DNA from: Haloplasmatales bacterium 4B
GTDB taxonomy: Bacteria > Bacillota_I > Bacilli_A > Haloplasmatales > Haloplasmataceae
DNA: 64,000 nucleotides
Reading direction: 5' to 3'
Assembly (NCBI GenBank): GCA_003586005.1
Contig: NSKI01000007.1
Coordinates: 1 to 64,000 of the forward strand
Both the position numbers and the translations under genes were made by a program. Shown here piece after piece: positions 62,698 to 63,095 of the stretch; position 1 is the first letter of the stretch, and every line of letters begins with the position of its first letter. The notes under the pieces are model-generated. The model searched no databases. It was not told where the DNA came from and saw only the letters and a list, made by a program, of their open reading frames with translations.

Positions 62698-62726
62698 TTG
62701 TAATTTTATTAACCTCGTGCTATACT
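62698..62726 (+). promoter_or_regulatory. Promoter of the zinc-ribbon gene
   Basis: TTGTAA (62698-62703), 17 bp, TATACT (62721-62726), giving a leader of about 90 bases. Confidence 0.6.
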
Positions 62727-62746
62727 ATAAAAGAAATTATTAGGCT

Positions 62747-62818
62747 AATATTTGAATTTACCCTCGTCTAAGATACTGACAGTAAACTTCCAAATATTAA
62801 ACCTATCTTAGAAGGAGG
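62747..62818 (+). promoter_or_regulatory. Structured leader abutting the ribosome site of the zinc-ribbon gene
   Basis: Two helices interlock. Helix 1: AATATTTG (62747-62754) with CAAATATT (62791-62798), extended by TTTAC (62757-62761) with GTAAA (62782-62786). Helix 2: TCTAAGATA (62767-62775) in the loop of helix 1 with TATCTTAGA (62804-62812). The 3' strand of helix 2 ends exactly where AGGAGG (62813-62818) begins. The arrangement is that of a pseudoknot or of two exclusive hairpins that could control translation. Confidence 0.6.
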
Positions 62819-62825
62819 TAAACCC

Positions 62826-62990
62826 ATGGCTGACAAAAAGATTATTTGTAAAGATTGTGGAAATGAATTTATTTTCACTGAAGGTGAACAAGAATTTTAC
62901 AAAGAAAAAGGATTTGAAAACGATCCTGTAAGATGTAATGATTGCCGTAGAGCAAGAAAAAACCAAAGATCACAAGGACGTCGTATGTAA
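62826..62990 (+). CDS. Small zinc-ribbon protein (zf-trcl type), 54 residues
   Basis: A basic 54-residue protein with two CxxC knuckles: IICKDCGNEF and VRCNDCRRAR, separated by the family core FTEGEQEFYKEKGFENDP. It is the common stand-alone zinc-ribbon of Bacillota, of unknown role, likely to bind nucleic acid given the tail KNQRSQGRRM. ATG 62826 follows a perfect AGGAGG. It has a terminator and a structured leader, and its neighbour is a zinc-uptake gene. Confidence 0.87.
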   Translation: MADKKIICKDCGNEFIFTEGEQEFYKEKGFENDPVRCNDCRRARKNQRSQGRRM

Positions 62991-63003
62991 GTTCTGAAAT
63001 TGA

Positions 63004-63030
63004 AGAGAGGATAAAACCTCTCTTTTTTTT
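63004..63030 (+). terminator. Terminator of the zinc-ribbon gene
   Basis: AGAGAGG/CCTCTCT (63004-63010 with 63017-63023), 6-nt loop, then a T-run. Confidence 0.85.
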
Positions 63031-63055: not shown

Positions 63056-63095
63056 ATGCAAATGATTTGCATTTACATTAAATATGCTGCATAAT
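63056..63095 (+). promoter_or_regulatory. Zur-like box and promoter of the zinc-binding lipoprotein gene
   Basis: ATGCAAAT G ATTTGCAT (63056-63072) is a perfect 8-1-8 repeat with the 7-1-7 layout of Fur-family operators. It overlaps the -35 TTGCAT (63067-63072); CATAAT (63090-63095) follows after 17 bp. Repression by a zinc-loaded Zur is the simplest reading, although the base content differs from the Bacillus Zur consensus. Confidence 0.6.

Follow-up and report, generated by a model that had tools for sequence, protein, structure and literature searches.

The zf_Tbcl gene and its surroundings

The window analyzed here is the whole stretch of 64,000 nucleotides, and the features described below lie on its forward strand. 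At 62826 to 62990 it carries a gene for a protein of 54 amino acids, a four-cysteine treble clef with a basic C-terminal helix, which belongs to the zf_Tbcl family (PF13451; Pfam E = 1.7e-25). This match bears out the zinc ribbon that an earlier reading of the bare sequence, the sequence-only reading, had recognized in the product. The predicted structure of the protein (pLDDT 86) has two strands and two helices, and its C-terminal tail is basic and helical. A PDB sequence search with the protein returned eukaryotic zinc fingers as its sole matches, a PDB fold search with the model returned no match at E <= 0.001, and our literature search on PF13451/zf-trcl found no functional study.

The gene appears to form a single-gene unit, as judged by consensus and pattern matches on either side of it. 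A consensus scan predicts a sigma-A-type promoter (TTGTAA-17-TATACT, its second hexamer preceded by TG) at 62698 to 62726, from which the leader would be expected to start near 62733. A pattern scan places a terminator-like hairpin with a U run at 63002 to 63025, where it would close the unit before the next gene, znuA. That gene encodes a ZnuA-type lipoprotein (PF01297, E = 7e-66), which agrees with the zinc importer named in the sequence-only reading. It is preceded by the palindrome TGCAAATGATTTGCA at 63057 to 63071, which is kept at the same place in L005, L007, L010, and L018 and is degenerate in L017. This palindrome is probably a Zur-like (zinc-type) operator, separate from the leader RNA.

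These surroundings bear on the suggestion that the leader is under metal control, that is, that it senses zinc, directly or via the gene product, and acts jointly with znuA. The adjacency of zf_Tbcl and znuA, which is kept in six loci of the window's family, speaks for such control. However, znuA stands behind the terminator-like hairpin, in its own transcription unit and with its own conserved palindrome, and the leader is found in Clostridia and before family paralogs that lack znuA, making up many loci and species with no adjacent zinc-uptake gene. Metal control of the leader is therefore very improbable.

Two alternative folds in the leader

The leader holds two sets of complementary strands, which we refer to as state A and state B. 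In state A, TAGG at 62741 to 62744 pairs with CCTA at 62802 to 62805 as an outer helix, a pairing conserved across the window's family and within one Clostridium group; TAATATTTG at 62746 to 62754 pairs with CAAATATTA at 62791 to 62799 as a middle helix; and TTTAC at 62757 to 62761 pairs with GTAAA at 62782 to 62786 as an inner helix. The middle and inner helices make up helix 1, with 9 + 5 = 14 pairs, to which TAGG/CCTA adds an outer extension. The sequence-only reading had placed helix 1 correctly but had counted 13 pairs with an internal loop and had missed the extension.

In state B, TCTAAGATA at 62767 to 62775 pairs with TATCTTAGA at 62804 to 62812. This is helix 2, nine perfect pairs whose last base lies immediately 5' of the AGGAGG Shine-Dalgarno (SD) site at 62813 to 62818, just as had been described from the sequence alone. 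In the computed fold, helix 2 is prolonged across the SD site as an anti-SD helix, in which TTTACC and TC of the strand TTTACCCTC (62757 to 62765) pair with GA and GGTAAA (62815 to 62822). Both states thus draw on the strand TTTACCCTC, whose state A partner GTAAA mimics the GGTAAA next to the SD site. State A leaves the SD site unpaired, and most of the site is paired in state B, the minimum-energy fold of the window leader.

The last two bases of CCTA (62804 and 62805) belong both to full helix 1 and to helix 2, and no linker remains across helix 1 if both helices form. For these reasons the helices should alternate and the full states A and B are mutually exclusive; a stable pseudoknot in which both full helices coexist, which the sequence-only reading had entertained, is rejected as unlikely. 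A reduced H-type pseudoknot, in which the inner stem TTTAC/GTAAA and helix 2 together block the ribosome, would be sterically possible if the outer helices opened, as it combines a 5-bp stem and a 9-bp helix with a third loop of 17 nt. Yet such a knot would disrupt the outer helices of state A, which are conserved, and the strand of its inner stem is itself used by the anti-SD helix in state B, which leaves it a poor prospect.

Chance structure in an AT-rich leader is another reading to be weighed, given that the folding energy of the window leader is by itself ordinary (z = -0.97). When the leader was dinucleotide-shuffled 20,000 times, a perfect 9-bp stem of any kind arose in 2.5% of the sequences and two crossing perfect 9-bp stems arose in a single one, in line with the earlier judgment that so much perfect pairing is improbable by chance. 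The comparative tests reported below, which were replicated with flat controls and in held-out genomes, also contradict this reading, and we find it scarcely credible.

Conservation in the window's family

A zf_Tbcl gene is present in each of the eight genomes that represent the window's family, and in our sample of the window's phylum the PF13451 family occurs in only 3 of 120 genomes. Eleven leaders from genomes of the family have a common layout, TTAGG - TAATATT - TTAC - anti-SD - GTAA - AATATTA - CCTA - SD. The layout is somewhat divergent, with L003 and L014 differing most, and the paralogs L002 and L020 are without the leader. L002 and L003 are two further zf_Tbcl genes of the window's own genome, 2 kb apart (G000:C58:112262 and 114254); the leader of L003 is divergent (33.9 bits with the covariance model R1, introduced below), and before L002 no leader is visible.

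State B is well supported in an alignment of eight family leaders, in which 88% of its cells are paired and six pairs have changed on both sides. Its covariation score is 0.277 versus 0.151 in shuffles, none of 500 of which reached the observed value, and its pairing collapses when the alignment is slid. Helix 2 of the relative L008, which reads CCTTTTTTA/TAAAAAAGG, is an example of such compensatory change. For state A, 86% of cells are paired in the family alignment compared with at most 44% when it is slid. State A shows little covariation in the family, which is due in part to a shift of two rows at TAGG and in part to the conservation of the helix itself.

The sequence-only reading had proposed both an alignment of the leaders of relatives and a search of Rfam. 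The first yielded conservation together with the compensatory changes in state B, while the second, a covariance search of Rfam 15, gave no match at any such leader in the window or in sets of 20 and 8 relatives.

The same pairing logic in Clostridia

A genome scan added 80 zf_Tbcl loci, mostly from Clostridium. The leaders in Clostridia have different letters but the same logic. In one Clostridium group, hairpin A is closed by TAGG..CCTA, and in state B that same UCCUAU strand is the partner of AUAGGA in the loop of the hairpin. In a second group, the partner of CAACAT is ATGTGAATC in state A and AATGTTG beside the SD site in state B, and in a third, CTCC pairs either with GGGAG (state A) or with the GGAG of the SD site (state B).

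We compared own with swapped partners in swap tests which, here and below, count related sequences as independent: among 99 leaders, the own anti-SD duplex fell within the lowest 20% in 89 and within the lowest 5% in 49, and among 72 grouped leaders the comparison gave P = 1.7e-13 for state B and P = 1.6e-6 for state A. Inside groups, the difference was significant in all four for state B and in two of the four for state A. A control swap test on 51 other leaders of the window showed no effect (own, -9.3 kcal/mol; swap, -9.8 kcal/mol).

The result for state B was replicated in a held-out sample of 148 genomes from the class of G158 (Clostridia), 88 of which had PF13451 and from which 70 leaders were read. 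The 25 leaders of short, MADK-type proteins had an advantage for their own partners (own, -20.1 kcal/mol; swap, -13.7 kcal/mol; 20 of 25 in the lowest 20%; P = 2e-6), whereas the 45 leaders of longer, MYEDK/MFEDK-type proteins showed no effect (own, -11.8 kcal/mol; swap, -11.4 kcal/mol; P = 0.32). Since the effect is seen with the short but not with the long proteins, the element belongs to one subfamily, and the other serves as an internal control.

Hairpin A can be followed across groups as well. With the SD strand removed, leaders fold better than shuffles in four of four groups (mean z, -1.6 to -2.0), and 81 to 91% of the cells of the state A helix are paired, a figure that collapses on sliding. 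Inside groups, where the helix is conserved in sequence, covariation of state A is weak, and one Clostridium group shows none. A plain single hairpin is disfavored, as relatives keep both sets of strands and the leader still folds well once its SD strand is left out.

As far as covariance models can tell, the leader architecture sits almost only before zf_Tbcl genes. Model R1, run on 21 genomes, gave 10 matches at E < 1e-3, and all 10 (8 of them training sequences) precede zf_Tbcl; the weaker matches that we inspected were SD look-alikes, except for the zf_Tbcl leader L109 (E = 0.17). With model R2, 21 of 22 matches in 17 genomes lie directly 5' of zf_Tbcl (six are training sequences), and with model R3 the same is true of 7 of 10 matches in 17 genomes (five are training sequences). 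The exceptions to R2 and R3 have E values between 0.05 and 0.08, and one of them is the antisense of a true match. The motif was not found before csp or other genes, either with the covariance models or by comparison with csp leaders of the same genomes.

Several Clostridium csp genes have another conserved leader, TCAATTAGTAC .. ATTTTATTAGTG .. TTTAAGAATAATAAAATTTCGGAGGTAC (L133, L134, L137, L141, L149, L154, and L160), which may be a separate csp leader motif. In three Clostridia genomes (G153, G157, and G158, the genomes of L067, L048, and L086), no PF00313 cold-shock-domain gene was found, yet each has two to three zf_Tbcl genes.

Leaders of the longer zf_Tbcl subfamily

In other Clostridia, the genes of the longer subfamily (MYEDK/MFEDK) often have a tRNA-like element directly 5' of the SD site, as in L257, L259, L252, L231, L232, and L260 and, by eye, also in L229, L234, L242, L246, and L250. 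It has a D-arm-like GCTTA..GGAAGAGC and a T-arm-like GTCGGTTCAAGTCCGGC and scores 24 to 33 bits with the Rfam tRNA model, and ARAGORN makes no call. A genuine tRNA-Gly(CCC) is often located just upstream (L226, L237, L244, L246, L250, L258, and L259).

At other loci of this subfamily, a raiA/ModT RNA (RF03072; 162 to 187 bits) ends directly 5' of the zf_Tbcl gene. These are L239 (1762 to 1987, minus strand), L243 (1109 to 1456, plus strand), L251 (1182 to 1457, plus strand), L264 (17 to 355, plus strand), and L267 (280 to 506, minus strand) and, by eye, also L224, L227, L228, and L249. The published neighbors of modT are mostly comFC and raiA (PMC11706538). The raiA/ModT RNA resembles the present element in being a neighbor of zf_Tbcl genes, but those of the longer subfamily; its structure, of about 209 positions, is unrelated, and we did not find it here with the short subfamily.

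A probable two-state translational switch

The leader is, on the comparative evidence, a real and conserved bistable RNA. That evidence supports state B and its masking of the SD site, hairpin A as the alternative to it, and the dedication of the element to zf_Tbcl genes; comparison and folding together give two exclusive folds, one that exposes the SD site and one that closes it. We consider it likely that the leader is a cis-acting, two-state translational switch dedicated to the small zf_Tbcl gene. The sequence-only reading had anticipated alternating helices acting as a translational switch, and the conservation of the leader, the compensatory changes in state B, and the occlusion of the SD site in that state uphold it.

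In the proposed mechanism, the upstream strands of state A would fold into a long hairpin, with the anti-SD strand either paired in it or enclosed by it, and the SD site would stay free; in state B the anti-SD strand would pair with the SD strand and block ribosome entry. The strands would be exchanged by mimicry: in the window, TTTAC would pair with GTAAA in state A, its state B partner being the GTAAA within the GGTAAA next to the SD site, and the end of CCTA would join the outer helix in the one state and the anti-SD helix in the other. State A would be expected to form first during transcription because all of its strands precede the SD strand. A new RNA would then be born open and later refold to the closed state B. 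We infer that this exchange acts on translation in vivo and that the signal would be something that favors state A or slows refolding.

Among known systems, the thermoswitch of cspA mRNA is the closest working analogue, and we do not claim membership in the cspA family. The Escherichia coli mRNA (Giuliodori et al., 2010, as described in PMC9947658) has a cold fold that recruits 30S efficiently and a 37°C fold that is less accessible. Both leaders would have two exclusive 5' folds of the initiation region, an open one and a closed one as regards the SD site, and the open fold of the present leader may likewise be favored in the cold. Unlike cspA, the element has about 85 bases rather than a 159-nt leader (PMC6239172), shows no sequence relation to it, and precedes a PF13451 gene rather than a cold-shock-domain gene; the csp leaders of the same genomes differ from it. 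Like translational riboswitches, it would use an exchange between an anti-SD and an alternative helix to govern SD access of the next gene, but it matches no Rfam 15 family and serves one gene family. Zipper thermometers (ROSE, fourU) also sequester the SD site in a leader helix, a weak and mismatched one, whereas the anti-SD duplexes here lie mostly between -18 and -24 kcal/mol and face a competing upstream hairpin. Because duplexes of that strength are too stable to melt near growth temperature, the element does not qualify as a zipper thermometer. The structured-RNA surveys that we searched for zinc make no mention of the metal and do not describe the element, and we call it new mainly because it is absent from Rfam 15.

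Candidate signals

Our first guess at the signal, and a tentative one, is cold or a shortage of RNA-remodeling capacity, as for cspA. We followed the energy gap between states A and B, since the probability of an unpaired SD site as a function of temperature is dominated by any local SD pairing. In the window, the computed gap favors state B by 3.7 kcal/mol at 37°C but by only 0.4 kcal/mol at 5°C. Toward the cold, the group medians fall for the window's family and for one Clostridium group, shift only slightly for a third group, and rise for the largest. The gene neighborhood offers hints of RNA metabolism or cold: RNase R is the divergent neighbor of zf_Tbcl in five loci of the window's family, and a DEAD-box helicase adjoins zf_Tbcl in 6 of the 80 Clostridia loci in three arrangements (downstream in L034, L044, and L088; upstream in L056 and L091; downstream on the opposite strand in L061). 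A seventh helicase match, L085, is RecQ-like in appearance. These hints do not decide between temperature and autoregulation.

Autoregulation, in which the small basic zf_Tbcl protein would set the balance by binding its own leader at hairpin A or B, competes with the other signals and not with the two-fold model itself. We rate it nearly as likely as cold, which leaves it somewhat doubtful. The leader sits almost only before zf_Tbcl, even in genomes with several paralogs, as product feedback predicts; the predicted tail of the protein is basic and helical; and genes of the longer subfamily carry a different structured leader, which is often tRNA-like. A dedicated temperature switch, however, would look identical, and the fold search of the PDB gave no match for the protein at the threshold used.

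A small-ligand riboswitch is improbable. The unpaired bases of hairpin A are conserved within groups, and a metabolite or ion might lodge in its conserved internal loop, for example the CAAG/CAAG of one Clostridium group. But the conserved letters vary between groups, so that no common binding pocket is visible, and no Rfam class matches.

A broader reading would join both subfamilies. The zf_Tbcl proteins might be translation or stress factors that bind RNA and regulate their own production via the leaders of their mRNAs; the short subfamily would use a bistable anti-SD switch and the long one a tRNA-mimicking cloverleaf, such that two unrelated RNA architectures would have evolved for the same feedback. 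We regard this as speculative and, on balance, unlikely.

These results add an RNA element for which Rfam 15 has no entry and which stands before one gene family in many Clostridia and some Bacilli. The leader offers a first handle on a widespread family of small zinc fingers for which we found no functional study in the literature, and the two-state model yields sharp predictions for mutants. Were cold to prove the trigger, the element would be a cold switch outside the csp family in these bacteria; were it the product, zf_Tbcl would be an RNA-binding regulator.
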